DNA of 64,000 nucleotides from Candidatus Lindowbacteria bacterium RIFCSPLOWO2_12_FULL_62_27 (GTDB lineage: Bacteria; Lindowbacteria; 2-12-FULL-62-27): the NCBI GenBank assembly GCA_001784175.1, contig MFPR01000004.1, forward strand, positions 434,001 to 498,000, given 5' to 3'. Below, piece after piece: positions 33,287 to 57,283 of this stretch. How positions within the stretch are numbered: the first letter of the stretch is position 1; each line of letters starts with the position of its first letter. A program made the translations under genes and the position numbers. The notes beneath the pieces are model-generated. The model had not been told where the DNA came from. It searched no databases and was given only the letters and a program-made list of their open reading frames with translations.

Positions 33287-33295
33287 CGAAAGCCG

Positions 33296-33325
33296 ACTTA
33301 ACCTTCCGAACAAAAGGCTTGTCAA
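33296..33325 (-). promoter_or_regulatory. Putative promoter, leaderless spacing, for the 32207 glycosyltransferase
   Basis: On the minus strand TTGACA (33325-33320), an 18-base spacer and TTAAGT (33301-33296) end 9 bases before the ATG at 33286. The sequence is closely similar to the pseB promoter (45085-45057): both read CTTGACA, then a GC(C)TTTTG-containing spacer, then TTAAGT. Confidence 0.55.
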
Positions 33326-33348
33326 GTTTCATTCGCTTGTGCTTTCAT
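33320..33348 (+). promoter_or_regulatory. Weak putative promoter for the second WbqC unit
   Basis: TGTCAA (33320-33325), 17 bases and TTTCAT (33343-33348) end 6 bases before the ATG at 33355. The stretch TTCGCTTGTGCTTTCAT resembles TTCGCCTGTGCTTCCAT upstream of the first WbqC gene at the same distance from its start codon. The -35 overlaps that of the divergent glycosyltransferase promoter. Confidence 0.3.
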
Positions 33349-33354
33349 GGATCC

Positions 33355-38924: not shown

Positions 38925-40813
38925 AGCTCCTAATAAGGTGCGGCGTTCCTCCGGACGGCGCTTCTAAATCGCAGGCTGGACTGAAGGAGCTTCATCGCTC
39001 AGACCGATTCTGCATCGAGGGGGATACAGACATCCGGCGGTTCCGGGACGCCCTGGGGTCGAGCCTTTTTGTGGGAGGTCGATTCCTTGGGGTGGATTCG
39101 GAGGCGGCCAAGATCGTTTTCCAGAAGGGCATGGAGGCCGGCCGCGAGACTCTGGAAGGCCGCTATTTCCTCGTCCTTGTCCGGCCGGACGGCTCATGCG
39201 AAGTTTGCACGGATCGGTTCGGCCAACAGGAACTATATTATGAAGAAGACTCGGAGGGCTTGGTCTTGGCTACGGATATTTCGCTCCTGCCCCGCCGCGC
39301 TCAGCGCCATCACCAGCCGGCCCTTGCGCACGCGCTTTGCGTCTACGGCTGGCGTCCTCCCAAGCGTCACACCTTTTGGGAGGGTGCGCGGCGTCTGGGG
39401 ATCGACCAGGTTCTTCGAGTGGAGGGTGGCCGCGCGCATATCCGGGACATTCCGTTCCAGCCGCTCAAGACCGGCAATTATACCGAACACCATCTGAACG
39501 CGTATGCGGATTCCCTGCTCAATGCCATTCGAGTCCGGGGATCGGACCATGGAAATGTCGTTTACCTCTCGTCCGGGTGGGACTCGACCGCGATTCTGGC
39601 GTGCCTGGTGAAGCTTTTTGGCGCGGGGAAAGTTCGAGCGATCACCGGGCGGATCATCTACTCGGATCGAAGCGGCATCATCAACCGGTTTGAAACGGAC
39701 CGGGCACGGGCGGTCGCCGATTACTATGGGATCAAGCTCGACATCGTCGACATTGACTACCGACGGGAGGGGCCCGACCTCTTGGAGCGGTTGCAGCCGT
39801 TGATGCAGGCGCACCAGATCGGCAGTATTTCGTTGCTCACTCAGGAACGCTTCGCCGCGCACGTGGCTGCAACCTCGAACGGCGACGAATCGGTCTTTGC
39901 CGGAGAAATCAGCGACGGAGCGCACAATCTCGGATTCAGCCAGTTCACCACGATCTTCCACCCGGTTCATGAGTTTCGCGAGTACAGTGACAAGATGGCC
40001 AGCTATCTGTTCGGGCCCACGTTTCTTGGACGCTTGCAAGATGGAACGTACTTCGAGGACCCTGTTTACCAGTTGCTTCGGTCCCGCCTACCGGACGCCG
40101 CCTTCGATGCGCCTGCCAACGGCAGCCGGGCCGGCCACACCATGCATCTGCTGTCCAGTTTCTTTCTCCGTCTCAGACGCTTTCCGCTCTGGTCCTTGAG
40201 CAACAGCCGGGTCCTCACCGGGGACGGTCGCATGGCGTATCTTCGGGAAATGGAAACCACCTATCTGAAGCGGGCCGCCGAAGAGGCGACGGTCGAAACA
40301 CTCTACTCGTGGTATCTTTGGCTTTACAACTCGTTCCACTGGCAGGGTTCGACGGTCCTTTCGTTATACCTGACCGCTGAGGCGCAGGGCCTCAGGATGG
40401 AGATGCCGTTCTGGGACGGCCGGATACAGGAGTTTCTGTCTGCCATGCCCGAGTCTTGGGGCCGGGGGCTCGACCTCAATCCCACCAAATATCCGCTCAA
40501 ATGGACGCTGAAACATCGGGTCGATTACCCCTTCCATCTTCAGCGCGGCCCCCATTCCTATATTTACGACGTCCAGCCGGGATTCAGTCTGGTCGCCGAA
40601 GTGTTGTACGATTCCGCGTTTTCTCCCTATTTCAGGAAAATCCTGGCACGACGGCAATATCGGGAGGTGCTGTCACCAGAAGTGTTCGATCTGGAGCATA
40701 TTGACGGAATTGTCCACCGATATCAGGAGGGAACGGAAGTGCGTGGAGAGGAACTCAGCGAACTTTTGGCCCTATGCCAGCTCTCAGCCGCAGGATGGTT
40801 CGCCTCGCGATGA
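38921..40813 (+). CDS. Asparagine-synthetase-like (AsnB family) protein without N-terminal Cys
   Basis: A 630-residue protein with the two-domain AsnB layout. The N-terminal half resembles a class II glutamine amidotransferase (EGRYFLVLVRPDG, CTDRFGQQELYY), but the residue after Met1 is Lys rather than the catalytic Cys2, so ammonia release from glutamine is unlikely. The C-terminal half has an ATP-pyrophosphatase PP-loop, LSSGWDSTAILACL (218-222 region; usual SGGxDS), and FAGEISDGAHN. It would adenylate a carboxylate and add an amine from another source, for example to amidate a uronic or nonulosonic acid or form an amidine. Start ATG 38921 overlaps the PIG-L stop; the stop overlaps the radical SAM start. 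Confidence 0.82.
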   Translation: MKLLIRCGVPPDGASKSQAGLKELHRSDRFCIEGDTDIRRFRDALGSSLFVGGRFLGVDSEAAKIVFQKGMEAGRETLEGRYFLVLVRPDGSCEVCTDRFGQQELYYEEDSEGLVLATDISLLPRRAQRHHQPALAHALCVYGWRPPKRHTFWEGARRLGIDQVLRVEGGRAHIRDIPFQPLKTGNYTEHHLNAYADSLLNAIRVRGSDHGNVVYLSSGWDSTAILACLVKLFGAGKVRAITGRIIYSDRSGIINRFETDRARAVADYYGIKLDIVDIDYRREGPDLLERLQPLMQAHQIGSISLLTQERFAAHVAATSNGDESVFAGEISDGAHNLGFSQFTTIFHPVHEFREYSDKMASYLFGPTFLGRLQDGTYFEDPVYQLLRSRLPDAAFDAPANGSRAGHTMHLLSSFFLRLRRFPLWSLSNSRVLTGDGRMAYLREMETTYLKRAAEEATVETLYSWYLWLYNSFHWQGSTVLSLYLTAEAQGLRMEMPFWDGRIQEFLSAMPESWGRGLDLNPTKYPLKWTLKHRVDYPFHLQRGPHSYIYDVQPGFSLVAEVLYDSAFSPYFRKILARRQYREVLSPEVFDLEHIDGIVHRYQEGTEVRGEELSELLALCQLSAAGWFASR

Positions 40814-42363
40814 TGAGAGGCGCGTCGAAACTGGACTTGCTGATCGTCTCGCCCGGCGACCACAAGATCATTTACCAGGACCTGGCGGCGGAATACGCCG
40901 CGCTCGAACCGCCCATTTGGGCGGGGCTCATTGCAAACTTTGCGAGACACAAAGGCTGCAGCGTCGATATCATCGACCAGCAGGCCGAGGGCCTGACGCC
41001 GGGGGATATCGTCCGGAGGGCCTTGGACGACCGGCCGAGGCTCGTGGCCATCCTCGTCTATGGCCAGCAGCCGTCCGCGTCCACTCAAAACATGACCATG
41101 GCCGGCGAGATCGCGGCGCAATTCAGTGAACACGCGCCGGAATTCAAAACGATCCTGATCGGCGGCCACGTCTCCGCCATCCCGGAACCCACGATGCGGG
41201 AGACGGCCTGCGATTTCGTATGCGAGGGGGAAGGCCCCTGCACCGTGGATGCGCTCCTTCAGCTTGAGAACATGAACGATCCCTCGGACTACTCCAAAGT
41301 CCCGGGTCTTTGGTACCGGCGCGATGGACACATCCTGAACACAAACCCCGCGCCGGTCGTGCCGGAAAAAGAACTGCCGGCCACCCTGCCCGGCATCGCA
41401 TGGGACCTTCTGCCGATGCATGCCTACCGGGCGCACAACTGGCACTGTTTCTCGCACATCCACGACCGCAGCCCCTATGCATCGATGTATACGAGCCTCG
41501 GCTGCCCGTTCAGATGCACCTTTTGCTGCATCAACGCACCCTTCGGATCGGCCGGACTGCGATGCTGGGATCCAAAATTCGTCATCACGGAACTCGACCT
41601 CCTGGCCAACCGCTACCGCGTCAAGAACATCAAAATCGCCGACGAGATGTTCGTCTTGAATGAACGCCACGTGCTGGATCTGTGCGACCTCATCATCGAA
41701 CGGGGCTATGAGTTTAACTTCTGGGCATACGCGCGCGTCGATACAGTCAAGGACAGGTTTCTGGAGAAACTCAAGAAAGCCGGATTCAACTGGCTCTGCC
41801 TCGGGATCGAATCGAGGAGCAACCATGTTCGCGCAGGGGTCGTCAAGGGACAGTACAGCGAAGAGGACATCTACGATACGGTGCAGCGCATCAAGAACGC
41901 CGGCATCCATGCCTTCGGCAACTACATCTTTGGCCTGCCGGACGACACCTGCGAATCGATGCAGGAAACGCTGGATCTGGCGGTCGACCTCAACTGTGAG
42001 ATGGCCAATTTTTATTGCGCCGCCGCCTACCCGGGATCCAAACTCTACGAGATGGCGAAGGCGAAGGGTTGGCGCCTCCCCGAGAAATGGCATGACTTCT
42101 CACAGCATTCCTACGGCCAGTTGCCGCTGCCGACAGAGACGCTTCCCGCAGGAGAAGTTTTGGCGTTTCGGGACAAGGCCTGGCAAATCTATTTCACCAA
42201 TCCCCGGTATCTCAATCTGATTCTGGAAAAATTCGGCCGGGAGGCGGTGGATCACATCGCCAAGCTGACCACGTATACGCTGCGTCGAAAGCATGCGGCG
42301 CCCCTGCGCGTTGAACCGTGTCTGCGAAAGGACGCGACGGAAGTGAAGGGCGTCAGCGTCTGA
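40810..42363 (+). CDS. B12-binding-domain radical SAM protein
   Basis: A 517-residue radical SAM enzyme. Residues about 8-150 form a cobalamin-binding-like domain (LLIVSPGDHKI, IWAGLIANFARHKGCSVDIIDQQ, TILIGGHVSAIPE). The [4Fe-4S] motif CPFRCTFC uses Cys232, 236 and 239. The barrel includes EMFVLNERH, WAYARVDTVKD, LCLGIESRSNHVRAGV and GNYIFGLPDDT. Such proteins methylate or rearrange carbons, or act on lipids and sugars. ATG 40810 overlaps the AsnB-like stop (ATGA). It ends the plus-strand operon and converges, with an 11-base overlap, on the X-domain gene; a second enzyme of this class (60087) carries an X domain at its own C-terminus. Confidence 0.82.
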   Translation: MMRGASKLDLLIVSPGDHKIIYQDLAAEYAALEPPIWAGLIANFARHKGCSVDIIDQQAEGLTPGDIVRRALDDRPRLVAILVYGQQPSASTQNMTMAGEIAAQFSEHAPEFKTILIGGHVSAIPEPTMRETACDFVCEGEGPCTVDALLQLENMNDPSDYSKVPGLWYRRDGHILNTNPAPVVPEKELPATLPGIAWDLLPMHAYRAHNWHCFSHIHDRSPYASMYTSLGCPFRCTFCCINAPFGSAGLRCWDPKFVITELDLLANRYRVKNIKIADEMFVLNERHVLDLCDLIIERGYEFNFWAYARVDTVKDRFLEKLKKAGFNWLCLGIESRSNHVRAGVVKGQYSEEDIYDTVQRIKNAGIHAFGNYIFGLPDDTCESMQETLDLAVDLNCEMANFYCAAAYPGSKLYEMAKAKGWRLPEKWHDFSQHSYGQLPLPTETLPAGEVLAFRDKAWQIYFTNPRYLNLILEKFGREAVDHIAKLTTYTLRRKHAAPLRVEPCLRKDATEVKGVSV

Positions 42364-42865
42364 AGGCGGGTTTCAGTCGATAATACAGGAGGGCGAAAGG
42401 TAGCGCCAGCGCGGCCAGACACGCCGCGGACAGGGCGCCGGCCATTGCCCGGATTCTGTCCAACACGAATCCTTTCCATGTCACTTGCCTGAAATGTTTC
42501 ACCGGCGCGTGGGAGACGATCCTTGAAACGCCGGCCGCCGTTAAAAAACGGATGATCCCCCCATATCCGCGGCCGTCCACATGGTTGTACGGCACATAGG
42601 CTTCATCGATCCGCTCCCGCCGGAGCCTCTCCAGACACAGCCGGTTCAATCCTCCGTAGGTCATCCACGGCCGGTCATACAGCAGAAAATCAGCTTCCAC
42701 ACCTTCCGATGCCTTGCGGATCTCCTTTTCCGCGGATGGCTGGACAATCCAGATCCACCGGACGCCAGCGTCTCCGACGCCGGCCGGATACCGCACCTCT
42801 TTGAGATACCGAAACAGAGCCAGACACTGCGACAGCGGGGCGGACCGGATCAGCAGGATGTTCAT
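42353..42865 (-). CDS. Stand-alone X-domain protein, possibly membrane-anchored, with in-frame repeat
   Basis: A 170-residue protein of unknown function. Residues 1-120 (starting MNILLIRSAPLSQ, with LRRERIDEAYVPYNHVDGRGYG) match the X domain in the radical SAM protein at 60087 (NILILRSTRMWH; YSNTDGRSFENV) and in 1728-4010. The fold resembles the N-terminal lobe of heptosyltransferase-like GT-B proteins. Residues about 140-165 are hydrophobic (AGALSAACLAALALPFALLYY), probably one membrane segment with a basic end. Eleven residues (YPAGVGDAGVR, about 26-36) come from repeat copy D and are absent from the relatives. The start overlaps the upstream glycosyltransferase stop by 4 bases. Confidence 0.6.
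   Translation of the reverse strand: MNILLIRSAPLSQCLALFRYLKEVRYPAGVGDAGVRWIWIVQPSAEKEIRKASEGVEADFLLYDRPWMTYGGLNRLCLERLRRERIDEAYVPYNHVDGRGYGGIIRFLTAAGVSRIVSHAPVKHFRQVTWKGFVLDRIRAMAGALSAACLAALALPFALLYYRLKPAFRR
42758..42789 (-). repeat. Double-hairpin repeat, copy D (truncated, in-frame inside a gene)
   Basis: Only hairpin 2 remains: GCCAGCGTC (42764-42772), loop TCC, GACGCCGGC (42776-42784), with one A-C mismatch, flanked by CCGGA and CCGGAT. Read on the gene's strand it adds 33 bases (11 codons) between CGG codons, keeping the frame of the X-domain protein. Confidence 0.75.
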
Positions 42866-43953
42866 GGGACGGTTGCTTCGACAGGACGGGTCACGGCTTC
42901 ACAGACGGGCGCGAAGTCGTCGTGATAAACGGAGGTCGGCCGAGCGAGGTCGTTCAACGACAATTCGACGGCGTCCGTCGGGATGAAAGATAACATGCGG
43001 TGGGCGGATTTCAGCCGTCCCAGCATGCGCCGCAACGTCTCCCGGGAGGAGGCGCGAAATCCGTTAAACCGGTGCGGCGCATAGAATCTGTCCCACTCCC
43101 GGCTCAAATACTTTCCCAGCATCCACCAAAGGTATTTTTTCGCAGTCTCTTCCCCTTCCCGGACCGACATACCGTCCTGGCGGGCCAGTTCCTCCGCGAG
43201 GCAACGCTGGACTCCCTCGCACTCGCCCCGCCAGGGGGCTGCGCAGAACCATTCGAAGAGTCCGGGTTCCTGCGAGCCGCGGGCTGAGACCTGGCCGGGA
43301 TGGGCCTGACACAGTTTGTAGAGTTTCTCCAGACGCTTGACCTTGCCGCGGATGACGGGAATGCATGTGGTCAGGATCTCGGCGAACTCATATCCAAGCT
43401 TGCGTTCAATCACGCGGGTGTATCCGTCCCGGACGTCTTCCGTCCGGTGGATCGAGTTTCCGGTCGCAAACCAATGGCTCATGAAGCGGCCTAACCGGCC
43501 GGCGCCGGTGTCGTCTTCGATGTCGGCGTACTCATAATGCGTCATCCACTGGAACCGGCCATGGGTCTGGCCGGAATCAAGCCCGAACATGAGGCAGAGG
43601 CCATGCGCGACCCGGTACGCCGGATGCCGGTCCAGAAAATCCATGCAGAGATCCATCGTTTCAGGCACGTAAAAGTCGTCGTCGGACGCCAGCATGCAGT
43701 AGGGCGTCCGGGCCTGCGCCAGGCCCTGCGCCAGGCAAATGTTGGCGGAGGCCCGCGGATGGGCGAGATGGGTCACGTTCAATTGATCGCGATATCGCCG
43801 GATCATGGAAACGATGGCCTCAAAAGGTTCGGGGTCGCTCGCGTCTGAAATAATGATGGGATGTGAAAAGGCGCGGCCCGCGTAATACGCAAGAAACCGG
43901 GACAGGAACTGTACGCGGTTCCGCGTGGTCACCACCATGGTCAACCTGGGCAT
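42862..43953 (-). CDS. Glycosyltransferase, GT2-like (TIGR00180 type), paralogue of 32207-33286
   Basis: A 363-residue GT-A enzyme almost colinear with the 32207-33286 product: LTMVVTTRNRVQFLSRFLAYY, IIISDASDPEPFEAI, CMLASDDDFYVPETMD, GRFMSHWFATGNSIHRTED and LSLNDLARPTSVYHDDF. ATG 43953 is chosen because the paralogue aligns from there and GGAGG lies 9 bases upstream; a longer frame to 44028 is encoded by the repeat copies at 43967-44065. It lies between pseB and the X-domain gene. The two paralogues may add the same sugar to different acceptors or be a recent duplication for repeat-unit diversification. Confidence 0.8.
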   Translation of the reverse strand: MPRLTMVVTTRNRVQFLSRFLAYYAGRAFSHPIIISDASDPEPFEAIVSMIRRYRDQLNVTHLAHPRASANICLAQGLAQARTPYCMLASDDDFYVPETMDLCMDFLDRHPAYRVAHGLCLMFGLDSGQTHGRFQWMTHYEYADIEDDTGAGRLGRFMSHWFATGNSIHRTEDVRDGYTRVIERKLGYEFAEILTTCIPVIRGKVKRLEKLYKLCQAHPGQVSARGSQEPGLFEWFCAAPWRGECEGVQRCLAEELARQDGMSVREGEETAKKYLWWMLGKYLSREWDRFYAPHRFNGFRASSRETLRRMLGRLKSAHRMLSFIPTDAVELSLNDLARPTSVYHDDFAPVCEAVTRPVEATVP

Positions 43954-43966
43954 GTCCGACAGCCTC

Positions 43967-44065
43967 CGGATCAGCCTCTCCGAGGCCTCAAGTGCCGGCG
44001 TCTCGGACCAGCGCCTCCGGCGCCTCAAGTGTCGGAGTCTCCGACTCCGACCCGACGCCGGCTGG
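43967..44065 (-). repeat. Double-hairpin repeat, copies C1 and C2 (one nested in the other)
   Basis: Plus-strand reading: C1 starts CGGATCAG at 43967 with hairpin 1 GCCTC/TCC/GAGGC, spacer CTCAAGT and the left arm GCCGGCGTC (43994-44002). It is then interrupted in its loop by C2 (about 44004-44053) and resumes with the right arm GACGCCGGC (44054-44062). C2 has hairpin 1 GCGCC/TCC/GGCGC and hairpin 2 GTCGGAGTC (44031-44039), TCC, GACTCCGAC (44043-44051), a fully compensated stem different from C1. The block spans the pseB 3' end; the spacer of C1 supplies the pseB stop codon. Confidence 0.85.
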
Positions 44066-45046
44066 ACAGGCTGCCGTAAGGCTCATCACGTCCGATAGAA
44101 ATTCTTGGGAAAGCCGGATGTCGTTTTGATTGCTGGCGTACCGAAAGCCGCTCTTGACCCGCCGGCCGTTCTTGCTGATGTCACCCAAGGGCGGGAACGC
44201 CGGATAAATCACATAGTGGTCGTCAAACTCGCGCGTGTGCTCGCTTTCGTCCTCCGTGATCAATACCTCATGGATCTTTTCTCCCGGTCGCTTGCCGATA
44301 AATTCGAGCTCGCAGTCCGGCGCGATCAGGCGCGCAATATCCACCACCCGCGTGCTCGCGATTTTCGGAACGAGGATTTCACCGCCATGCATCCGTTCGA
44401 GACAGGTGAGCACGAATTCCACGGCGTTGTCGAGCGACATCCAGAAGCGCGTCATGCGGGGGTCGGTCACAATCAGTTTTCCGCTTTCCCGCTGCTCGAG
44501 AAACAGGGGCACCACGCTTCCGCGGCTCGCCAGAACATTTCCGTATCGCACCACGCTGAACCGCGTCCCCTTCTCCCCGGAATAGACATTGGCCGCGACA
44601 AACAATTTCTCCGCGCAGAGTTTCGTGGCCCCATAGAGATTGACGGGGTGAACCGCCTTGTCCGTGCTCAGGGCGATCACCTTCCGAACGCCCTGGTCGA
44701 TGGCCGCGTTCAGGACGTTCTCCGCACCGATGACGTTGGTCTTGACGGCTTCGATGGGATTGTACTCCAGGGTCGGCACCTGTTTGAGCGCCGCCGCGTG
44801 AATGACGATGTCCACGCCCTGAAAGGCCCGGTCCAAGCGGCTCTTGTCGCGCACATCCCCGATGAAAAATCGGATGGCCGGGTTCCCCACGAACTCCCGC
44901 TGCATCTCCACCTGCTTGAGTTCGTCCCGGCTGAAGATGATCAATTTTTCAGGCAACATTCGGTCGAGGACGAATCTCGCGAAATGTCTCCCGAACGACC
45001 CCGTTCCCCCCGTGACGAGCACCACTCGTCCGTTCAGATCAATCAT
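43988..45046 (-). CDS. pseB: UDP-N-acetylglucosamine 4,6-dehydratase (inverting), PseB-type
   Basis: A 352-residue SDR of the CapD/FlaA1/PseB group, which converts UDP-GlcNAc to a UDP-4-keto-6-deoxy-L-sugar, the first step to pseudaminic acid. Signatures are VLVTGGTGSFGRHF (10-22), SRDELKQVEMQREF, HAAALKQVPTLEYNPIEAVKTNV, STDKAVHPVNLYGATKLCAEKL (Tyr138, Lys142), RYGNVLASRGSVVPLF and MTRFWMSLDNAV. Length and motifs fit the short soluble PseB class, not membrane-bound FlaA1-like forms. The last 25 or so residues (from CPAGVGSESET) are read from the double-hairpin repeat, so the native C-terminus has been replaced. It has its own promoter and heads a three-gene unit. Confidence 0.9.
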   Translation of the reverse strand: MIDLNGRVVLVTGGTGSFGRHFARFVLDRMLPEKLIIFSRDELKQVEMQREFVGNPAIRFFIGDVRDKSRLDRAFQGVDIVIHAAALKQVPTLEYNPIEAVKTNVIGAENVLNAAIDQGVRKVIALSTDKAVHPVNLYGATKLCAEKLFVAANVYSGEKGTRFSVVRYGNVLASRGSVVPLFLEQRESGKLIVTDPRMTRFWMSLDNAVEFVLTCLERMHGGEILVPKIASTRVVDIARLIAPDCELEFIGKRPGEKIHEVLITEDESEHTREFDDHYVIYPAFPPLGDISKNGRRVKSGFRYASNQNDIRLSQEFLSDVMSLTAACPAGVGSESETPTLEAPEALVRDAGT

Positions 45047-45087: not shown

Positions 45088-46149
45088 TCAGTACGGGCCT
45101 TTGAACGTGTCGACCGCGTCGATGCCCCGCAGGTTGCCCTGCGGATGCCGGCCGAGCATGTGCAGAGACAGCCCGACGATGGTCGAAGCCTTTGGATACA
45201 GGACCGACTCGAGACTGGCTGCCACCGGCGCGGGGCAGTTTGGGGAGGAGAGCCGCCGGACGGGGCCGCGCAAGGCGTCGAAGGCCTTTTCCGCGGCCAG
45301 CGCGGCGATCTCGCTTGAGAATCCGCAGCATTCCCAGCTTGTGTCCGCAACGATCAGCCGGCCCGTCTTTCGCACGGACGCCAGAATCGTTTCCTCGTCC
45401 AGGGGCCGGATGGATCTCGGGTCGATGATTTCCACTTCAATCCCTTCCTTGGCAAGCACGCCTGCGGCCACAAGCGCTTCCTGCACCATGTAGGATGTCG
45501 CAACAAGCGTCAGGTCGACGCCCGGCCGGACCACCTTCGCATGGCCGAAGGGCGTCGCGTAGTACTCCTCGGGCACCGGCCCGGTCAATTCGAAGAGCGA
45601 CCGGTGTTCCAGAATGATCACCGGATGGGACGCGCGCAGTGCGGCCATGGTGAGGCCCTTGGCGTCCTCCGGAGACGCCGGCATGACGACCGCCAGACCG
45701 GGGAAATGCGCCAGAACGGACTGCAGGCTCTGCGAATGCGTGGGACCCTGCCCCCAGCCCCGCCCGATGATACCCCGGACCACGATGGGCACAGACCCCG
45801 CACGGCCGCCGTACATGTATCGCCACTTCGCCGCCACGTTGATGAGCTGGTCGAACGCGAGGAACATGAAATCATTTCGCGGGTGGACGACGACCGGCCG
45901 CATGCCCATGACCGCGGCGCCGATGGCGATGCCGGTCAGGGCGTTCTCCATCGCGGGCGCGTCAAACACGCGCGCCGGCCCGAACCGCCGCAGGGCTTCG
46001 ACGGTCGACCCGAAAATTCCCGACGGATAGTCGACGGAGATGCCGGTGACAAAAATACCCGGATCCCGTTCCATGGCCATGCAGAGCCCCTCGGACAGTG
46101 CATCCTTGAATTTGATGTTGCGCGCCGGCCTCAAGGCGTCACCAGACAT
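45088..46149 (-). CDS. TPP-dependent 2-oxoacid dehydrogenase/transketolase-type E1 beta subunit
   Basis: A 353-residue E1-beta-like protein: FKDALSEGLCMAMERDPGIFVTGISV, VFDAPAMENALTGIAIGAAVMGMRPVV (the TPP-activating Glu), FDQLINVAAKWRYMYGG, RGIIGRGWGQGPTHSQSL and a C-terminal IDPRSIRPLDEETILASV. It pairs with the alpha subunit encoded just upstream (11-base overlap). No E2 lipoyl acyltransferase or E3 gene is nearby, so a complete 2-oxoacid dehydrogenase complex is unlikely; with sugar-nucleotide genes in the same operon, carboligation of an acyl unit to a sugar is plausible, but this is inference. Last gene of the operon from 51673. Confidence 0.85.
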   Translation of the reverse strand: MSGDALRPARNIKFKDALSEGLCMAMERDPGIFVTGISVDYPSGIFGSTVEALRRFGPARVFDAPAMENALTGIAIGAAVMGMRPVVVHPRNDFMFLAFDQLINVAAKWRYMYGGRAGSVPIVVRGIIGRGWGQGPTHSQSLQSVLAHFPGLAVVMPASPEDAKGLTMAALRASHPVIILEHRSLFELTGPVPEEYYATPFGHAKVVRPGVDLTLVATSYMVQEALVAAGVLAKEGIEVEIIDPRSIRPLDEETILASVRKTGRLIVADTSWECCGFSSEIAALAAEKAFDALRGPVRRLSSPNCPAPVAASLESVLYPKASTIVGLSLHMLGRHPQGNLRGIDAVDTFKGPY

Positions 46150-47134
46150 CGGCGTACAGATCTCCCTGGGGTGGCGGATCGGCGGCCCGCGCGCGTTTCA
46201 CGGCGTCTTCGACGTCGCGGGTGATGCCGTTGGACAACGCGGCGAGCGCGGCCTCGTCCGCAACGCCAAGGCGGATGATTTCGGCAGCGCTGCGTTTGAC
46301 GGGACACCGCTGCATCCAGGATTCGACTTCTTCGCGCGACCGGTACGTCCGGCCGGCTTCATGATCAAAATGCGGGCCGACATGCTCGAGCCACCGGTAG
46401 GTCATGCATTCCAGAAAGGCCGGCCCCTCGCCGCGTCTCAGGCCATCCGCCAGACGCGCCGAAGCCTCGTACACGGCGGCGAGGTCGTTGCCGTCAACCC
46501 GCTCCGCCTTCAGTTTGAACGATCTCGCCCGTTCGCAGAGTTCCGTGCCGGCCGGTTGGCGGACGGAGAGAGGGCTTTCCGTCGAATAGAGATTGTTCTC
46601 GCAGACGTACAGGACCGGCAGACGGCGGATGGCGGCATAATTGATGCTCTCGTAGAATATCCCCTCTTCGCAGGCCGCCTCGCCAAAGAAGGATACCGCC
46701 AGCCGCCGCTCGCCGCGCATGGAGAATGCCAGGGCCGATCCGGTCGCGATGGCAATCGTCTCACCCAGAATGGCGGTGGAGGCGATGAAGCCGACGGCCT
46801 GCGCTGTCAGATGGGCGGACCCGCCTCGGCCCCGGGAACAGCCGGCCTCACGGCCGTACAGCTCCGCCGCCAGCTCATAGACGCTCCCGCCGCTCGCCAG
46901 GTAATGATTGTGGGCCCGGTGATGGCTGTAGACAACATCGCCCGGCCGCAGCGCCGTGACAACACCGACGGCAACCGCCTCCTGACCAAGTCCAAAATGC
47001 GCGGGCGTCCGCATCTCCTGCTCGCGATATAATTCCGCCAAGCGCCGGCTCGCGATCCGTACGCGCAGGAGCCGCGCGTGCATCTCAAGACGCAGTTCGC
47101 CGGGAATTTCTGTCCGCGCCGGTTCGGCCTTCAC
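46139..47134 (-). CDS. TPP-dependent E1 alpha subunit
   Basis: A 331-residue E1-alpha-like TPP enzyme subunit. Features are MRTPAHFGLGQEAVAVGVVTAL, VYSHHRAHNHYLASGG, CSRGRGGSAHL, and the TPP/Mg region SFFGEAACEEGIFYESINYA, where the usual GDGA begins GEAA, a conservative change at the metal-binding Asp. LPVLYVCENNLYS and FLECMTYRWLEHVGPHFDHE follow the family. GTG 47134 is chosen: it overlaps the TGA of the upstream dehydrogenase-like gene and follows GGGAGG; the longer frame to 47281 is antisense-like over that gene. It works with the beta subunit at 45088. Confidence 0.82.
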   Translation of the reverse strand: MKAEPARTEIPGELRLEMHARLLRVRIASRRLAELYREQEMRTPAHFGLGQEAVAVGVVTALRPGDVVYSHHRAHNHYLASGGSVYELAAELYGREAGCSRGRGGSAHLTAQAVGFIASTAILGETIAIATGSALAFSMRGERRLAVSFFGEAACEEGIFYESINYAAIRRLPVLYVCENNLYSTESPLSVRQPAGTELCERARSFKLKAERVDGNDLAAVYEASARLADGLRRGEGPAFLECMTYRWLEHVGPHFDHEAGRTYRSREEVESWMQRCPVKRSAAEIIRLGVADEAALAALSNGITRDVEDAVKRARAADPPPQGDLYADVW

Positions 47135-48405
47135 ACATCCTCCCTGACGCCCAACACGAATTGCCGGATGCCCGCCGCACGGCATTTCTGGCGGTCCAGC
47201 ACGCCGAACGGATCGACGATGAGCGCGCCGGACATGGCGGCGCGCACATCGGCCGGCGCAACATTCGAAAATTCCTTCCACGGCGTCATGACGACCAATG
47301 CGTCGGCGCCTTCGACGGCCTCCCGCGCGCTGGTGACCTGCACGCCGTTCGGCGCCGCGTCTTTGTCCAGCATGGCCTGCGGATCATACGCCTTCAGGGA
47401 AAGGGGCGCCAGGGCCCGCATCAGCGCGACTGCCGGCGAGTTCTTGATGGACGCCGTATCGGCCTTGTAGGCGATCCCCCAGATGCCGATTTTAGGGCGT
47501 GGGTGATGCGCCAGCAGATGCGTTTTGAGAATTCGCATCGGCCAGTTTTTTCTGTGCGCGCTGTTGGCGAGAAAGGCGTCGATGACACCCCCATCCGTGC
47601 CCCGCGTGAGGGCCATCGATTGAACGGCCGCAAGATCCCGCTCGATGTTGCCGCCGCCGATGCCCAGACCCGGCACGAGATACGCGTGAGGGCCGATCCG
47701 CCGGTCGGATTTCAGCGCCGGAATAATCTCGGACCAGTCCGCGCCCACCGTCTCGCACAGCTCCGCCAGCGTGTTGGAAGCGGACAGCGATGCCGCCAGA
47801 CACACGTTGATGGAAATCTTCGCCAGCTCGGCGCTCTCGTATCGCATTTGAACTACGGGACAGCCGAAAACGTCGAGAATCGCCCGGTACGCCGCCGGCA
47901 GCCTCTCGGCCGGATTCGCGCAACCCACAATGAACCGCTCGGGGTTACGCGCCCGGTCCACCGCGTCGCCGAAAATCAGCGTTTCGACCTGGTAGTAGAG
48001 GCGGATGTCCCGCCGCGCGCCGGCCAGGGTCCGCATCGTGCCCGGCGGAAGCTGGCTCATGACCGCAAGGACCGCATCCGGCGGCGCGGCCCGGACGGCC
48101 GTGTCGAAGAGATGATGAAACCTCGTGAGATCGCTTCGATTCTGGTGGTCGGTTGCGATGTCGATGGAAACATGAATGACCCGGCAGGATGCGAGACCCC
48201 CGGGATCGGACATGAAACGAATCCGGCCGGCGTTTTCTCGAAAAAGTTCCGCAAGGCCCTTCTCATAAATCGGTAAGCGACCGTGCGTCAGATCCCGGCA
48301 CAGGTCCTCATCGGAATCGAACGCCAGAACCTGATCCCCGGTTTTCGCCGCGATCACAATGCTCGATACGATTCCCAGATGGGACAGGCCGGCGAACCCG
48401 ATCAT
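47131..48405 (-). CDS. UDP-glucose/GDP-mannose dehydrogenase-like protein with catalytic Cys replaced by Asn
   Basis: A 424-residue protein with the three-domain layout of nucleotide-sugar 6-dehydrogenases: N-terminal MIGFAGLSHLGIVSS, LPIYEKGLAELF, a central helix AELAKISINVCLAASLSASNTLAELCE with Lys196 and Asn200 conserved, and a C-terminal GIWGIAYKADTASIKNSPAV. The active-site loop, normally GGSCxPKD, reads GIGGGNIERD (248-257), so the nucleophilic Cys is Asn253 and the following Lys is Arg. Oxidation to a uronic acid through a thioester is therefore unlikely; it may oxidise only to the aldehyde or do something else. ATG 48405 overlaps the Gfo/Idh stop (ATGA). Confidence 0.82.
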   Translation of the reverse strand: MIGFAGLSHLGIVSSIVIAAKTGDQVLAFDSDEDLCRDLTHGRLPIYEKGLAELFRENAGRIRFMSDPGGLASCRVIHVSIDIATDHQNRSDLTRFHHLFDTAVRAAPPDAVLAVMSQLPPGTMRTLAGARRDIRLYYQVETLIFGDAVDRARNPERFIVGCANPAERLPAAYRAILDVFGCPVVQMRYESAELAKISINVCLAASLSASNTLAELCETVGADWSEIIPALKSDRRIGPHAYLVPGLGIGGGNIERDLAAVQSMALTRGTDGGVIDAFLANSAHRKNWPMRILKTHLLAHHPRPKIGIWGIAYKADTASIKNSPAVALMRALAPLSLKAYDPQAMLDKDAAPNGVQVTSAREAVEGADALVVMTPWKEFSNVAPADVRAAMSGALIVDPFGVLDRQKCRAAGIRQFVLGVREDV

Positions 48406-49319
48406 GCGGGTTCCCGTTCCGGAACCCCGCTCAACACCGAATGAATCCAAGCGTCCTGGTCGAGGCGGGTGCCGGCGGTCCGGCAGAGTTCCTGAAAGTA
48501 CCGGTATTCTTTTGCCCATGTCGGATCCGGGCCCTCGGCACGTTCCGTTTCCTCGGAGGGCCGGCCGCTCGGCAAGACCCGTTTTCGGATCGTCAGCGTG
48601 CTGAACCCCCATTTGCACAGGCCGTGCAGGTGGAGGCTGCCGAGTTCGCCGAAGAGATCGATCACGAAGGTGTTCCTCCAGCAGATGAGCGACATCTCGA
48701 GTTCGACCATCGGCGTCCCGCGGCTGATCAGGATCGCATGATCGTACGCGCGGTTTTCAAAGCGGTTGAGGCAGCGGACATCGTATGTGCGATGCCGCTG
48801 GTCGCCGAGCAGAAACACCGTCAAGTCGAGGAGATGCGAACCGAGGTCCGATACGACACCGATGCCCCTGTCCCGCCAGGGAGAATTACGCGAATCCCGC
48901 GCCGTGCCGTTCCCGTAGTGGAGCTTCGCCAGATACACGGCGCCGATCGCGTTCTGATCCAGGAGCGCCTTCATGCGCTCGATGGTCGGTTCAAACCGAT
49001 GGTTGTAGGCCGTGTAGCAGGCCACGCGCGAGCGGCGGGTGAGGTCCCGCAGTTCCGCGTAGACGCCGGCCTCCGGCGCGAGCAGCGGTTTTTCGACAAG
49101 AACGTGCTTGCCGCCGGAGATCAGGCGCCGCAGAAGATCAAGCTTCGGGCCGTCACCGGTGCAGAGGAGGGCGGCGTCGAAGTCCGCGGGCGGAACGTCG
49201 TCAATGCGCCTGTGGGACGCGTCGGAAACGGCGGGGTCGACGGTCGCCACGACATCGGCGCCGCATGCCGCCACGCGCTTTCGGCCCTGAATCCCAAGGC
49301 CCACGACGACGCATCTCAC
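48402..49319 (-). CDS. Gfo/Idh/MocA-family oxidoreductase
   Basis: A 305-residue oxidoreductase: Rossmann motif RCVVVGLGIQGRKRV (2-16), HVLVEKPLL with the canonical Glu76-Lys77-Pro78, YTAYNHRFEPTIERM and the substrate-domain SDLGSHLLDLTVFLLGD. It keeps the catalytic EKP that the 463-1683 relative lacks in part. It lies between an HldE-like gene and a Cys-less nucleotide-sugar dehydrogenase, overlapping each by 4 bases. The likely reaction is oxidation or reduction of an NDP-sugar ring carbon, for example C3 or C4. The substrate is not deducible. Confidence 0.85.
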   Translation of the reverse strand: MRCVVVGLGIQGRKRVAACGADVVATVDPAVSDASHRRIDDVPPADFDAALLCTGDGPKLDLLRRLISGGKHVLVEKPLLAPEAGVYAELRDLTRRSRVACYTAYNHRFEPTIERMKALLDQNAIGAVYLAKLHYGNGTARDSRNSPWRDRGIGVVSDLGSHLLDLTVFLLGDQRHRTYDVRCLNRFENRAYDHAILISRGTPMVELEMSLICWRNTFVIDLFGELGSLHLHGLCKWGFSTLTIRKRVLPSGRPSEETERAEGPDPTWAKEYRYFQELCRTAGTRLDQDAWIHSVLSGVPEREPA

Positions 49320-50869
49320 GAGAATTTCAGCTTGCTTTCGACCGTGTCCAGTTTCTTGAGAATATCTTCAGGAGAAACAGGGATATTGCCCTCGCGCTCG
49401 CAGGCGACGCCCGCCGCCATCGACCCCAGGATGGAGGCGACCACAGGGGATTCCGTGGCGCACAGGGCCAGCGTCGCGTACGCCAGCATCGCGTCGCCGC
49501 TGCCCACTGCGTCCACGACATGGGACGCAAAACTGTCCACTGTGAAAAATGACCGCGCTTCGATGCTCGGACGCCGATACGTGAGGATGCCCCGGCTTCC
49601 CAGTTTCAGAATCAGCGTCCTGCATTGCGCGCGTTTGTAGAGCTCCAGCGCCAGCGGCCGGACGACCGAGTCCTGATCGCCCAGCGCAAACCGGGCCTCC
49701 CGTTCATTCGGCGTGATGAGATCGAACGCCTGAAAATCGAGGATGTTGCCCCACCGGCTGGCGACCTGGCTGTCGGCGACCCGCAGTTTTCCCGGCGGAA
49801 GGGCGGCAATCAGGCGTGGAATGCTTTCGTGGTTGAAAATGCCGTGCCGAAAATCGCTGAAAACGTACGCGGCCGCGCCGTCGGCGGAAATGGACGCGAT
49901 GAGTTTGTCCAGCACGCGATCGGAAATCGGGCGATTGTCGACCTTGTCGAATTTCAGCAGCCGGTATCCGTCCGAGACAAATACGTTTTTCTGGGTGGTC
50001 GGCCTCGTCACGTCAATCACAAAATCACCCTCCACCCCGGCCTTCGTCACCTCCCGGATGACAAAATCCTTGAGCGCGTCGCCGCCCAGCACCGTGGAAA
50101 AGCGGACGCGCGCGCCGGCGGCGGCCAGATGCCCGGCGACCACGGCCGCGGCGCCGGCAAAATCGGCGTGCCGTTCATACTTGACGCTCAGGGTGGGCGT
50201 CTTGACCGAGCCGGTGTTGATCGTCGTGCAATGCGTGTGGGTATCGACGATGGTGTCGCCGACGACATGCACGCGGACGCCCCTGAATTTCTGCACGGCC
50301 TCCCGGAGCGCTGGACAGGTGACACCCTCGGATTCCATCAATGTTCCGAGCTTCTCGATCGCCAAGCCCGGCAGTCCGCTTTCGATGAATGCCGAGGACG
50401 AGAAAACGATGTCGCCGGGCGTGAAGAGAATTTCGCCGCCGTAACTGTTCAGCGTTTCCACCTCCACCCGGGTCTGCGGGTGAAGCCCCCGCTCCGTGTA
50501 TTCGTAACCCTTGGCAAAAAAATCCGGCTGCAGCGTCTGAAGGCTGTCGATGGGGGTGGCGCTGTGATCGATCAGGACGTAATCGACGATTTCCAGGGCC
50601 GCAAGATTCATCGCCCGGAGTTCCTGCGGAACAAACGGCCTGAAATTTGCCTTGGTGATGTAGTCGTCGCCGGTCAGGCTCGCAATCAGAACGTCCGCCT
50701 TGGCCTTCGCGTACATGAGATGGCGGATATGTCCGGGATGAACGAGGTCGAACGTGCCGTGACACATGATCACCGTCTGCGCGCGCGGCCGGGGACCGAT
50801 GATCGCCGCAAGCTCCTCACGCGACTTGATTTTCCGGCGGTAATCATTTCCAGTGCGGGCCGATTTCAT
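49316..50869 (-). CDS. HldE-like bifunctional protein: nucleotidyltransferase then PfkB kinase
   Basis: A 517-residue bifunctional enzyme related to heptose kinase/ADP-heptose synthase. The N-terminal domain is a cytidylyltransferase-like fold, VIMCHGTFDLVHPGHIRHL (about 34-52). The C-terminal domain is a PfkB/ribokinase-type sugar kinase, with VHVVGDTIVDTHTH, DFAGAAAVVAGHLAAAGARV and the catalytic DAVGSGDAML near 455-465. The order is the reverse of E. coli HldE (kinase first). It would phosphorylate a sugar phosphate and transfer a nucleotidyl group, perhaps on a heptose or on the product of the adjacent transaldolase. Start ATG 50869; preceded by GGAAAGG. 39 bases after the transaldolase gene. 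Confidence 0.85.
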   Translation of the reverse strand: MKSARTGNDYRRKIKSREELAAIIGPRPRAQTVIMCHGTFDLVHPGHIRHLMYAKAKADVLIASLTGDDYITKANFRPFVPQELRAMNLAALEIVDYVLIDHSATPIDSLQTLQPDFFAKGYEYTERGLHPQTRVEVETLNSYGGEILFTPGDIVFSSSAFIESGLPGLAIEKLGTLMESEGVTCPALREAVQKFRGVRVHVVGDTIVDTHTHCTTINTGSVKTPTLSVKYERHADFAGAAAVVAGHLAAAGARVRFSTVLGGDALKDFVIREVTKAGVEGDFVIDVTRPTTQKNVFVSDGYRLLKFDKVDNRPISDRVLDKLIASISADGAAAYVFSDFRHGIFNHESIPRLIAALPPGKLRVADSQVASRWGNILDFQAFDLITPNEREARFALGDQDSVVRPLALELYKRAQCRTLILKLGSRGILTYRRPSIEARSFFTVDSFASHVVDAVGSGDAMLAYATLALCATESPVVASILGSMAAGVACEREGNIPVSPEDILKKLDTVESKLKFS

Positions 50870-50908: not shown

Positions 50909-51673
50909 TTACTTCACCATCACGAGTTCTTGGGGCGACCCCAACGGCGAAACGTCGATGGCGTAGCCGGCGGCCAGCGCGTCCTTTCGGAACATCCGGA
51001 CGGTATCAAGCGAAAATTCTCCAAGGTCTTTGCCGACCAGCGGCAGTTTCGACAGCACGTCCCGGGTGGCCGTGATGATAGGGCAGCCGACCGCATCGGC
51101 CTGGAAGATGTTCAGAAGTTCGCGCGGGCTGGCCCAGATGAGTTCGACGGAAGGATAGGCCGCCAGAAGTTTCACGCACTCGCCCATGAGAGGACACGGA
51201 TCGCGGCCCGTGTCGGCAATGCGCCCCGCAAAGACCGACACATATCCGCGAACCGCAGGGGCCATGCATTTGAGAACGTCCGCCACCTGTGCGGGCGTCA
51301 TGATCGCGGTGACATTCAGTTGAACGCCCGCTTCCGTAAGGTCGCGGACAAGTTCGCCGGAAAATTCGCCGCGCGTGTTGCTGACCGGGATCTTCACGTA
51401 GATGTTGGCGCCGCCCCACGACGCGATCTCCAGCGCCTGGGCTTTCATTTCCAAAAATTCGTCCGAGAATACTTCAAACGAAATCGGCTTGTCCCCGATG
51501 ATCCTCAGCGCCTCCTGCGCAAACGCCCGGTAGTCGATCACGCCGGCCTTGCGCATGAGCGTCGGATTGGTCGTAAATCCCTTGATCATCGGGTTCCGAG
51601 CCATCTCGGCGATGACCGCGAGATCCGCCCCGTCCGCAAACAACTTTACCTTCAGCTTTCTGACATCTGTCAT
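50909..51673 (-). CDS. Transaldolase (FSA/TalC-like)
   Basis: A 254-residue class I transaldolase: VKLFADGADLAVIAEM, MIKGFTTNPTLMRKAG (phosphate or substrate loop), SFEVFSDEF, the Schiff-base lysine in ANIYVKIPV (Lys94), LNVTAIMTPAQV, YVSVFAGRIADTG and IWASPRELLNIFQA. It cleaves or transfers a three-carbon dihydroxyacetone unit. It heads the minus-strand operon that continues with HldE-like, Gfo/Idh, dehydrogenase-like and E1 genes, so it probably makes the starting sugar phosphate of that pathway. ATG 51673 has a GGGGAGGGGG site just upstream; earlier in-frame codons are not needed. Confidence 0.87.
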   Translation of the reverse strand: MTDVRKLKVKLFADGADLAVIAEMARNPMIKGFTTNPTLMRKAGVIDYRAFAQEALRIIGDKPISFEVFSDEFLEMKAQALEIASWGGANIYVKIPVSNTRGEFSGELVRDLTEAGVQLNVTAIMTPAQVADVLKCMAPAVRGYVSVFAGRIADTGRDPCPLMGECVKLLAAYPSVELIWASPRELLNIFQADAVGCPIITATRDVLSKLPLVGKDLGEFSLDTVRMFRKDALAAGYAIDVSPLGSPQELVMVK

Positions 51674-51765
51674 GAACGTCCCCCTCCCCGTTTTCAAGAA
51701 AAACTGAAAACGAAATCACATATCACATTTCCCGCCGCAAGTCACGAGGCACAGCGTCGGTTGCC

Positions 51766-51800: not shown

Positions 51801-51821
51801 ATGGAGAACCCCTTCGAATGA
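51801..51821 (+). CDS. Possible six-codon leader peptide coupled to the SDR gene
   Basis: ATG at 51801 opens MENPFE and stops at TGA 51819-51821, overlapping the SDR ATG (51818-51820) as ATGA, the same overlap found between real genes of this locus. It begins 6 bases after the putative -10, so it could be translated from a leaderless transcript and deliver ribosomes to the SDR start. It is too short to judge by composition. Confidence 0.3.
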   Translation: MENPFE

Positions 51822-52657
51822 GCGGATTGGCCGGCCGGGCCGGAATGGTCACGGGCGCGGGGCGTGGGATCGGCCGGGCCATTGCACTCGCACTGGCGGG
51901 CGCCGGCGCGCGGCTCCTCTTGGTTTCGAGAACTCGAAGCGAGCTGGAAGAAACGGAACGGATGATCCGGAACGCCGGCGGAGATGCGCGGATACTTGCG
52001 GCAGACGTTTCCCACGAGAACACGGCCCGGCGGGCGGTGGAGGTGTGCCATGAAGAATTCGGAACGGTGGACATCCTCGTGACTGCGGCGGGCATCATCG
52101 GGCCCATCGGGCCGGTTGAAGAGGCGACGGTGGCCGACTGGCGAAATACCATCGACATCAATCTGACCGGAACGTTCTTGTTCATCAAGGCCGTGCTGCC
52201 CGTCATGAAGAAACAACGACGCGGGAAACTCCTGCTCCTGTCCGGCGGCGGCGCCTCGGCGGGATTTCCGTTCCATGCCGCCTATGCGGCCGCCAAGGTC
52301 GCCATCGCGCGGCTGGCGGAGACAGTCGCGATGGAAGTCAAGGACGACAACATTCAGGTCTTCGCGATCGCCCCCGGCGCCGTGCACACACGGATGGCCG
52401 AAGAAATGATGGCGGCCGGACGTCGAGGCGGCGAATTGGAATATCAGCGGTTGGTGGAACAGAAAAAGACCGGCGGCGTACCGCCGGAAAAGGCCGCGGA
52501 ACTTGCCGTGTTTCTCGCGTCGGACGCGTCGGCCGGCCTGACCGGCCGGTTGATCAGCGCCGTATGGGACCCATGGCAGTCGTGGAGTCCGGAGGACATC
52601 CGGCGGATGGGGGAAGGGGACATCTTTCAGTTGCGGCGCGTCACGGAGAAGAACTGA
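51818..52657 (+). CDS. Short-chain dehydrogenase/reductase
   Basis: A 279-residue classical SDR. Nucleotide-binding motif MVTGAGRGIGRAIALALAGAG (10-29), ILVTAAGIIGPIG (NNAG position), and the catalytic Ser and Tyr-x3-Lys in LLLLSGGGASAGFPFHAAYAAAKVAI, then VFAIAPGAVHTRM. It resembles FabG-like enzymes but has a longer C-terminus (about 40 residues ending EDIRRMGEGDIFQLRRV). A single-gene unit between the transaldolase operon and gmhA. It probably reduces or oxidises a hydroxyl of a pathway sugar, although a general metabolic role cannot be excluded. Confidence 0.8.
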   Translation: MSGLAGRAGMVTGAGRGIGRAIALALAGAGARLLLVSRTRSELEETERMIRNAGGDARILAADVSHENTARRAVEVCHEEFGTVDILVTAAGIIGPIGPVEEATVADWRNTIDINLTGTFLFIKAVLPVMKKQRRGKLLLLSGGGASAGFPFHAAYAAAKVAIARLAETVAMEVKDDNIQVFAIAPGAVHTRMAEEMMAAGRRGGELEYQRLVEQKKTGGVPPEKAAELAVFLASDASAGLTGRLISAVWDPWQSWSPEDIRRMGEGDIFQLRRVTEKN

Positions 52658-52683: not shown

Positions 52684-53286
52684 TCACGCGCTTTCGCGAA
52701 TGCGCTCGGCCAGTCGATACGTGATGAGATGGTGCAGGACAACGTGGAACGATTCGACGTGGGGCGTGGTGTTCCAGGGAACGACAATGCAGGCGTCGGT
52801 CATCTGCTTCATGGCGCCGCCGTCAAATCCGCTGAATCCCAGCGCCACACCTCCGTGGTCCGTGGCGTATCCAAGGCCCTTCAGGAGATTCTGGGACCAC
52901 CGCCCCGCCTTGTCCTTGCCCGATCCTCCGTGGACGCTGAGGGCCAGCGCCACGTCGCCGGGCTCAAAAAAGTTCTTCATCTGTTCCGTGTAGACATTCT
53001 CCCAGCCGTCGTCGTTCGTCAGGGCGCTGACCCATGGCACGCTGTCGACGAGGCTCATGACTTTGATGCGTTTCTTTCCCTCGATGGCCGTGCACTTGTT
53101 GAGGTCCGCGGCGAAATGGGACGCGGTGCCGGCTGATCCGCCGTTGCCGAAAATGAAGATCCGCCGGCCTTTTTCCCAGGCGCCGTAGAGATACTCGATC
53201 ACGCGGTCGATGTCGGCCCGGTTTATCTGGCGGGCGATTTCGACGATGCCATCCAAGTAGGTGTTGATGTAAGCCTCATTTCTCAT
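52684..53286 (-). CDS. gmhA: Phosphoheptose isomerase (GmhA/SIS family)
   Basis: A 200-residue SIS-domain isomerase converting sedoheptulose 7-phosphate to glycero-manno-heptose 7-phosphate. Evidence is RIFIFGNGGSAGTASHFAADLNK (sugar-phosphate binding), ALTNDDGWENVYTEQM, DVALALSVHGGSGK, where the usual STSGNS is SVHGGS, and C-terminal VESFHVVLHHLI with the metal or acid-base histidines. Start ATG 53286 has GAGGGG 6 bases upstream. Together with HddA and HddC (56500-58339) it supplies the GDP-heptose route; the phosphatase GmhB is not in the window. Divergent from the carrier-protein ligase gene. Confidence 0.85.
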   Translation of the reverse strand: MRNEAYINTYLDGIVEIARQINRADIDRVIEYLYGAWEKGRRIFIFGNGGSAGTASHFAADLNKCTAIEGKKRIKVMSLVDSVPWVSALTNDDGWENVYTEQMKNFFEPGDVALALSVHGGSGKDKAGRWSQNLLKGLGYATDHGGVALGFSGFDGGAMKQMTDACIVVPWNTTPHVESFHVVLHHLITYRLAERIRESA

Positions 53287-54566: not shown

Positions 54567-54799
54567 CCGGCGCGGCCGACACTGTCAAGTCCTTCATCGC
54601 GCGCGCGCTCAAAATCGACGAGTCGGCCGTCCACGAGTCGCTGCAGCTCGGCGCCATCCCCCAGTGGGATTCGTTCGGACACATCAATCTGATGATGGCG
54701 CTTGAAGCCGAATACGGCGTGCCGATCACCGAGCAGACGGTGCTCCAGCACGTTTCCTACGCCGCCATCGCCGCGAGCCTCGCCGCGCTAAAACGATGA
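54563..54799 (+). CDS. Acyl carrier protein-like (aminoacyl carrier protein)
   Basis: A 78-residue phosphopantetheine carrier protein. The attachment serine is Ser37 in QWDSFGHINLMMALE; the fold is predicted as four short helices, with acidic residues before the site. The WDSFGH form is typical of specialised carriers rather than the fatty-acid ACP (DSLD). ATGA overlaps on both sides tie it to the upstream amino acid ligase and the downstream formyltransferase, so it is very probably the ligase's partner and holds an aminoacyl thioester. No phosphopantetheinyl transferase is in the window. Confidence 0.88.
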   Translation: MTGAADTVKSFIARALKIDESAVHESLQLGAIPQWDSFGHINLMMALEAEYGVPITEQTVLQHVSYAAIAASLAALKR

Positions 54800-56498: not shown

Positions 56499-56499
56499 A

Positions 56500-57246: not shown

Positions 57247-57283
57247 CGTAGGTCCGCAGTACGAGAGGAGGGGATTTCGCACA

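Follow-up and report, generated by a model that had tools for sequence, protein, structure and literature searches.

The locus described here raises the question of what a nucleotide-sugar dehydrogenase homologue does once the catalytic cysteine of its family is gone. The gene lies at 47131..48405 on the minus strand of a 64,000-nucleotide stretch of contig MFPR01000004.1 from Candidatus Lindowbacteria bacterium RIFCSPLOWO2_12_FULL_62_27 (hereafter the window, to which all coordinates refer). The minus-strand frame 48405..47131 encodes 424 residues without a stop, and the gene is not on the plus strand. Its product belongs to the UDP-glucose/GDP-mannose dehydrogenase family – all three Pfam domains score above their cut-offs, and the NCBIfam model for nucleotide sugar dehydrogenases, TIGR03026, gives 201.3 bits (cut-off 189.8), which establishes superfamily membership. 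The models for particular functions are far out of reach, with 150.9 against 700 bits for TuaD and 138 against 670 bits for AglM. By sequence, the closest solved structures are those of the sugar dehydrogenases 3gg2 and 4a7p; by fold, the closest is human UDP-glucose 6-dehydrogenase (UGDH). An AlphaFold model (10 rows, mean predicted local distance difference test score, pLDDT, of 80.8) matches UGDH structures with template-modelling scores of 0.7-0.8, confirming the UGDH fold; the loop 239-251, just before the residue at issue, is modelled at pLDDT <50.

Uronate-forming UDP-glucose 6-dehydrogenases carry the catalytic Cys in a GGSCxPKD loop. In the window enzyme this loop reads GLGIGGGNIERD (GGGNIERD), with Asn253 at the position of the Cys. 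The replacement had been proposed in an original prediction made from the sequence alone, and frame, codon and alignment bear it out: codon 253 (47647..47649, minus strand) is AAC, from which two base changes are needed to give Cys, and in a 35-member family alignment the catalytic column is uniform within each form, with Cys in all 20 Cys rows chosen, Asn in all 11 rows of the Asn form and Thr in all 4 rows of a further form. The same genome also encodes an ordinary Cys enzyme (L002, GGSCFPKD, 29% identical), which rules out the Asn enzyme as the sole UGDH of the genome.

The Asn form is not confined to this genome. Scanning genome contigs with the protein as query returned eight relatives, 45-51% identical, from Gemmatales, Hyphomicrobium, Opitutaceae, other Verrucomicrobia and Methylacidiphilum; a ninth, 70% identical, came from a genome of the same family as the source (G001; 145 genomes around the source searched). 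Asn occupies the catalytic column in all 10 aligned rows of this set, the source protein included. We observed a more distant actinobacterial member (G676, L025/L032; 422 bits) with the loop GGNLERD. Within the order to which the Hyphomicrobium seed belongs, eight of 170 genomes score >520 bits, seed included, and all seven new ones read GGNLERD; 37 genomes passed the cut-off, and of those below 520 bits two proved on checking to be Cys forms, the rest being judged by score. The resulting total of 18 distinct Asn genes, from several phyla, rules out Asn253 as a sequencing error or one-off and disposes of the concern, attached to the original prediction, that Asn might be unique to this sequence. 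Elsewhere the form is rare, with one carrier in 337 genomes of the phylum of L009 (the seed itself) and one in 346 of the phylum of G110. None was recognised in 392 genomes of a genus judged Streptomyces-like from its chaplin copies, where all 30 loci fetched are Cys forms, and a lincosamide link through Asn-form members of that genus was dropped. When plasmids and phages were searched with the protein no Asn-form member stood out (best plasmid match 32%, best phage match 28%), and in viral contigs the pattern matched in 13 stretches, none a relative. A literature search for enzymes of the family in which Asn replaces Cys gave nothing relevant among the matches listed.

A second Cys-free form carries Thr in the catalytic column and is represented by four genes (L063, L065, L068, L081). 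One of these (L026/L063, G673; GGTLGRD) turned up in searches for the Asn form, and its protein, used as a query, led to two Rhizobium megaplasmids with GGTLARD (L065 from R. jaguaris and L068 from Rhizobium sp. CB3060). A three-sequence Thr profile then found a single Cys-free gene (L071/L081, GSTLQRD) among the 392 genomes of the Streptomyces-like genus; 13 genomes passed this search and 12 loci were fetched. The plasmid loci L066 and L067 were considered as Thr forms and rejected, both being Cys forms without a cassette of the kind described below.

In a 35-row tree, one branch (100/100) separates the Cys-free rows (11 Asn, 4 Thr) from the 20 Cys rows. The split persists at 100/99 in a 44-row tree computed with the loop, SQ and YK motif columns left out, in which the Asn rows form one group at 100/100 – the conserved Asn clade that the original prediction had asked phylogeny to reveal – and the Thr rows, L081 among them, form another at 96/79. 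The rows were hand-picked (20 Cys rows in the first tree and 22 in the second, from 58 Cys matches that include duplicate loci), the trees are unrooted and the L081 branch is long, so a single origin of the Cys-free forms is favoured rather than proven.

The Cys-free forms differ from the Cys enzymes at few columns, with Asn or Thr for Cys, Gln118 for Thr, Arg256 for Lys, Tyr313 for Phe, and Ser or Thr for Asp at 319. The change to Gln118 (codon 48052..48054, minus strand), which the original prediction missed, affects the Thr of the KSTVPV motif, equivalent to human Thr131; all 15 Cys-free rows have Gln here, and all 20 Cys rows have Thr. The remainder of the UGDH site is kept. Lys196 and Asn200, whose retention had been predicted (codons 47806..47820 for Lys196 to Asn200, minus strand), are joined by Glu141 (47983..47985, minus), Arg236 and Asp257 (47635..47637, minus; human Asp280), and all five are invariant across 27 aligned rows of the Asn, Thr and Cys forms. 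That these catalytic or substrate residues stay fixed while the Asn-form genes diverge by up to 57% argues for an active enzyme. Passages of PMC3184952 on human UGDH describe a thiohemiacetal and a thioester on Cys276, an active water held by Asp280, charge stabilisation by Lys220 in the second oxidation and in hydrolysis, and Thr131 as a proposed guard of the intermediate during NADH/NAD exchange. Compared with these residues, the lost parts (Cys and the Thr131-type residue) appear to be those special to the second oxidation, and the kept parts those that would remove a hydride from an alcohol. The window enzyme thus shares with TuaD and human UGDH the three-domain fold and the active-site Glu, Lys, Asn, Arg and Asp, but differs at Cys, Thr131, Lys and Phe, and a uronic acid is not expected as its product.

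The genomic context of the gene suggests what the alcohol might be. In the window the gene run is transaldolase (50909..51697; TIGR02134 above cut-off), HldE-like fusion (49316..50869), Gfo/Idh/MocA oxidoreductase (48402..49319), Asn-form dehydrogenase, thiamine pyrophosphate (TPP)-dependent E1 alpha (46139..47134) and E1 beta (45088..46149), and a PseB-like 4,6-dehydratase as the penultimate gene (43988..45046; TIGR03589, 471 bits against 407.75), all on the minus strand. Four-base overlaps link the genes throughout from the HldE-like gene to E1 alpha, which upholds the predicted co-transcription of the dehydrogenase with the Gfo/Idh and E1 genes. A GmhA-like sedoheptulose-phosphate isomerase of the SIS family lies upstream (52684..53286, minus), as does a short-chain dehydrogenase/reductase (SDR; 51818..52657, plus) with similar genes in G001, G676 and the Thr-form cassettes. 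The fusion carries a nucleotidyltransferase (28-163, with an HPGH motif) followed by a PfkB kinase (192-506, with GSGD). Its kinase and nucleotidyltransferase domains, the isomerase, and the phosphatase of related cassettes belong to the same families as those of the HldE/GmhA/GmhB ADP-heptose pathway, but the cassette falls far below the curated cut-offs (142.3 against 521 bits for HldE), places nucleotidyltransferase before kinase, the reverse of HldE, and has in addition a transaldolase of its own, further oxidoreductases and, in many loci, a TPP pair. The E1 pair looks active, judging from the TPP motif GEAACEEG in E1 alpha; of eight other loci taken as E1, six show a motif (GEAATEEG once, a GDG form five times), and the remaining two are without a pattern match.

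We observed that these partners are constant across relatives. Of the 18 Asn loci, all encode an HldE-like protein and a Gfo/Idh protein, 16 a transaldolase, 15 GmhA and 15 GmhB, and all 22 Cys-free genes (18 Asn and 4 Thr) lie near Gfo/Idh and heptose/octose-type sugar-phosphate genes. By comparison, 0 of 21 control loci picked from the fetched Cys genes has an HldE, Gfo, transaldolase, GmhA or GmhB match; a nucleotidyltransferase-type match occurs in four, a weak SDR2 match in three and a short-SDR match in one. Seven Rhizobiales loci share the order GmhA – GmhB – transaldolase – SDR1 – SDR2 – HldE – Gfo – Asn dehydrogenase – SDR3 – methyltransferase – dehydratase-like SDR – TPP pair, to the extent that the individual contigs cover it, with the TPP pair of L101 on the other strand. 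A TPP pair accompanies 12 of the 18 Asn genes, of E1 type in eight (L099 is cut after E1 alpha) and as a split transketolase in four; of the remaining six, L007, L008, L096 and L100 are on short contigs, and L006 and L011 have none within flanks of ~8 kb. Aminotransferase genes occur in the cassettes of G001, where two DegT genes and an E1 pair directly follow the dehydrogenase, and of G676 and L097. They also occur in a second locus of the source genome on another contig (L121, G000:C13:58000-77999), which encodes SDR2 (62%), SDR1, two DegT aminotransferases, a second E1 alpha/beta pair, a GmhA-like protein and a distant HldE-like protein.

In the Thr-form cassettes a GHMP kinase and a nucleotidyltransferase replace the HldE-like fusion. 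The two Rhizobium megaplasmids, from isolates of Calliandra and Leucaena, each carry a nine-gene version (L065 11046-18907 and L068 11046-18907). The fourth Thr gene, L081, is flanked by an HAD phosphatase, an extended SDR, a GmhA-type isomerase, a Gfo/Idh gene and a GHMP kinase, and also by a class I aminotransferase, a PIG-L-like match, an adenylation enzyme, two PmbA/TldD genes, a methyltransferase and a WS/DGAT acyltransferase; no transaldolase match was found in the 20 kb searched around it. On our reading, its Gfo/Idh gene has a C-terminal carrier-like extension (Pfam names the Gfo/Idh part only). In the celesticetin cluster, according to passages of PMC4351081, a carrier domain is the 3' part of ccbZ, adjoining ccbN, and PMC12945683 lists Ccb1 as an acyltransferase. 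Because the L081 flanks, with their K-, L-, M-, N- and Z-type genes, carrier-like domain, PmbA/TldD, adenylation, kinase and WS/DGAT genes, match celesticetin, the Thr gene stands at the place of ccbL. In the tree the Asn clade is sister to the Thr group, which includes this enzyme from a lincosamide-type cluster.

Judged on this gene at the ccbL place, the window enzyme has both the Cys-free loop and the tree position of an LmbL/CcbL-type dehydrogenase, and the two share a fold. It also has the neighbours of that type – transaldolase, GmhA-type isomerase, Gfo/Idh, kinase and nucleotidyltransferase – with the last two of the HldE kind rather than LmbP and LmbO; passages of PMC4351081 give the same step classes for lincosamide clusters (isomerase N, phosphatase K, kinase P, epimerase M, Gfo/Idh Z). 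LmbL and CcbL differ in belonging to antibiotic clusters, in their GHMP kinase with a separate guanylyltransferase in place of the fusion and, as far as L081 represents them, in Thr instead of Asn. The review PMC12945683 assigns the conversion of GDP-octose into GDP-lincosamide to LmbM, LmbL, CcbZ and CcbS, and has the octose attached through its C6 to an amino acid (proline). The passages found on LmbL make no statement of a missing Cys. On the oxidation of heptoses at C6, passages of PMC10680097 deal with a C4-dehydrogenase and mention, under those names, neither a transaldolase nor a 6-dehydrogenase.

Taken together, these results suggest that the Asn form is probably a working NAD-dependent dehydrogenase that performs a single two-electron oxidation of a nucleoside diphosphate (NDP)-heptose or -octose at its secondary C6 alcohol, giving a 6-ketone. 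The constant HldE-like, transaldolase, GmhA and GmhB partners make the substrate probably a heptose or octose, in which C6 is secondary, and the lincosamide relative, by analogy, points to a ketone at C6 too. We propose that transaldolase, GmhA, GmhB where present, and the HldE-like enzyme would supply the nucleotide-activated sugar, which would be held as in UGDH while a hydride is taken from C6. The 6-ketone might then be epimerised or dehydrated by the adjoining Gfo/Idh and SDR enzymes, or aminated where DegT genes occur, and the TPP pair would perhaps extend the product. A ketone cannot proceed to a thioester and an acid, so Cys and the Thr131-type gate become dispensable and could be replaced by Asn or Thr and by Gln; a thiol on a ketone-forming enzyme might be useless or even trap the product, which would explain their joint loss.

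The original prediction suggested instead a hexose nucleotide oxidised at the primary C6 and left as a 6-aldehyde, a dialdose feeding a TPP-dependent carboligase. The missing Cys would fit such an arrest, as would the overlapping E1 alpha and beta genes in the same run and the TPP pairs elsewhere. The constant partners, however, which the prediction did not name, are not hexose-1-phosphate enzymes and would place a secondary alcohol at C6, and the closest cluster whose product class is known (L081, lincosamide) makes an octose. We therefore consider a dialdose end product improbable. The prediction was thus probably right in excluding a uronic acid and probably wrong in proposing a dialdose; its link to carboligation gains some support from the 12 loci with a TPP pair, and four of the other six are on contigs that run out close to the gene or have little length. 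An acid made by four-electron oxidation through an altered mechanism, in which Asn253 or water takes over from Cys, appears very improbable to us: Asp257 and Lys196 are kept, and the C276A human enzyme is said in PMC3184952, as far as its relevant passages go, to oxidise added aldehyde, but Cys and the gate are both gone in every Cys-free row and the genome already has an ordinary Cys enzyme.

Ketone formation could also be transient. In a redox-neutral epimerase, C6 or another carbon would be oxidised with bound NAD and re-reduced by the same enzyme or the Gfo/Idh protein, with net inversion and no ketone leaving. The Gfo/Idh gene in every Asn locus is consistent with this, and 6-epimerisation is reportedly among the lincosamide steps (a 2020 paper). 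The aminotransferases near several members, including the second locus of the source genome, suggest instead that a ketone is used further, and we regard an epimerase as unlikely. That the protein is an inactive or structural paralogue, as the lost catalytic residue and the poorly modelled loop might suggest, seems hardly credible given the five invariant residues, the unbroken frames and the translational coupling.

Several points nonetheless weigh against a single oxidation to a 6-ketone. Activity, the C6 position, the carbon number and the nucleotide are all inferred from sequence and gene context. GmhA and GmhB are by themselves no guide to whether the sugar is a heptose or an octose, and GmhB itself is not near the window gene, the single weak match in the genome having an internal stop. 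The L081 enzyme is 25% identical to the window enzyme and sits on a long branch; Asn and Thr are different residues; and for LmbL itself, oxidation of C6 is as reported in a 2020 paper. C276A human UGDH is described as still oxidising aldehyde, so a missing Cys does not by itself rule out a second oxidation step.

Elsewhere in the window we observed further sugar-related genes. On the plus strand, a split transketolase N/C pair (27317-29091), ~35% identical to the pair of the L009 cassette, is followed by an SDR1-like gene (29178-30065), and a nucleotidyltransferase and GHMP kinase (56491-58339) resemble those of the Thr-form cassettes and perhaps provide a second activation route. A formyltransferase near the cassette (54796-55743, plus) would fit an N-formylated amino sugar. 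A row of WbqC-like, RmlD-like SDR, DegT aminotransferase and NeuB genes (33211-37212, plus) is as for nonulosonic acid. Two copies of a glycosyltransferase-like protein (our label, no Pfam match; 42862-44028 and 32207-33325, both minus) are 76% identical, and a B12-binding radical SAM protein lies beside a protein we read as AsnB-like (no Pfam match) and a PIG-L deacetylase (40774-42363, plus).

The dehydrogenase is a variant of a known family, and the conserved, uncharacterised cassette around it is the more interesting part. A speculative extension, which we think rather unlikely, is that the Asn cassette is a pathway of several phyla in which an NDP-octose or -heptose is oxidised at C6 and extended by two carbons through the TPP enzyme, giving branched or carbocyclic C9-C10 sugars of the bradyrhizose and caryose kind. 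The dehydratase-like SDR directly before the TPP pair in the Rhizobiales loci bears on this idea; PMC4743980 describes the bradyrhizose genes as unknown, the exception being a cluster of eleven genes in photosynthetic Bradyrhizobium, among them a dTDP-glucose 4,6-dehydratase-like one. If the 6-ketone reading is true, a simple rule would follow for the family, with Cys marking primary-alcohol substrates and acid products, and Asn or Thr marking higher-carbon sugars with a secondary C6 and ketone products. Miscalled 'UDP-glucose 6-dehydrogenases' could then be re-annotated from one codon, and an uncharacterised long-sugar cassette common to Planctomycetes, Verrucomicrobia, Rhizobiales, Actinobacteria and the rare lineage of the source genome would be linked to the octose chemistry of the lincosamides.

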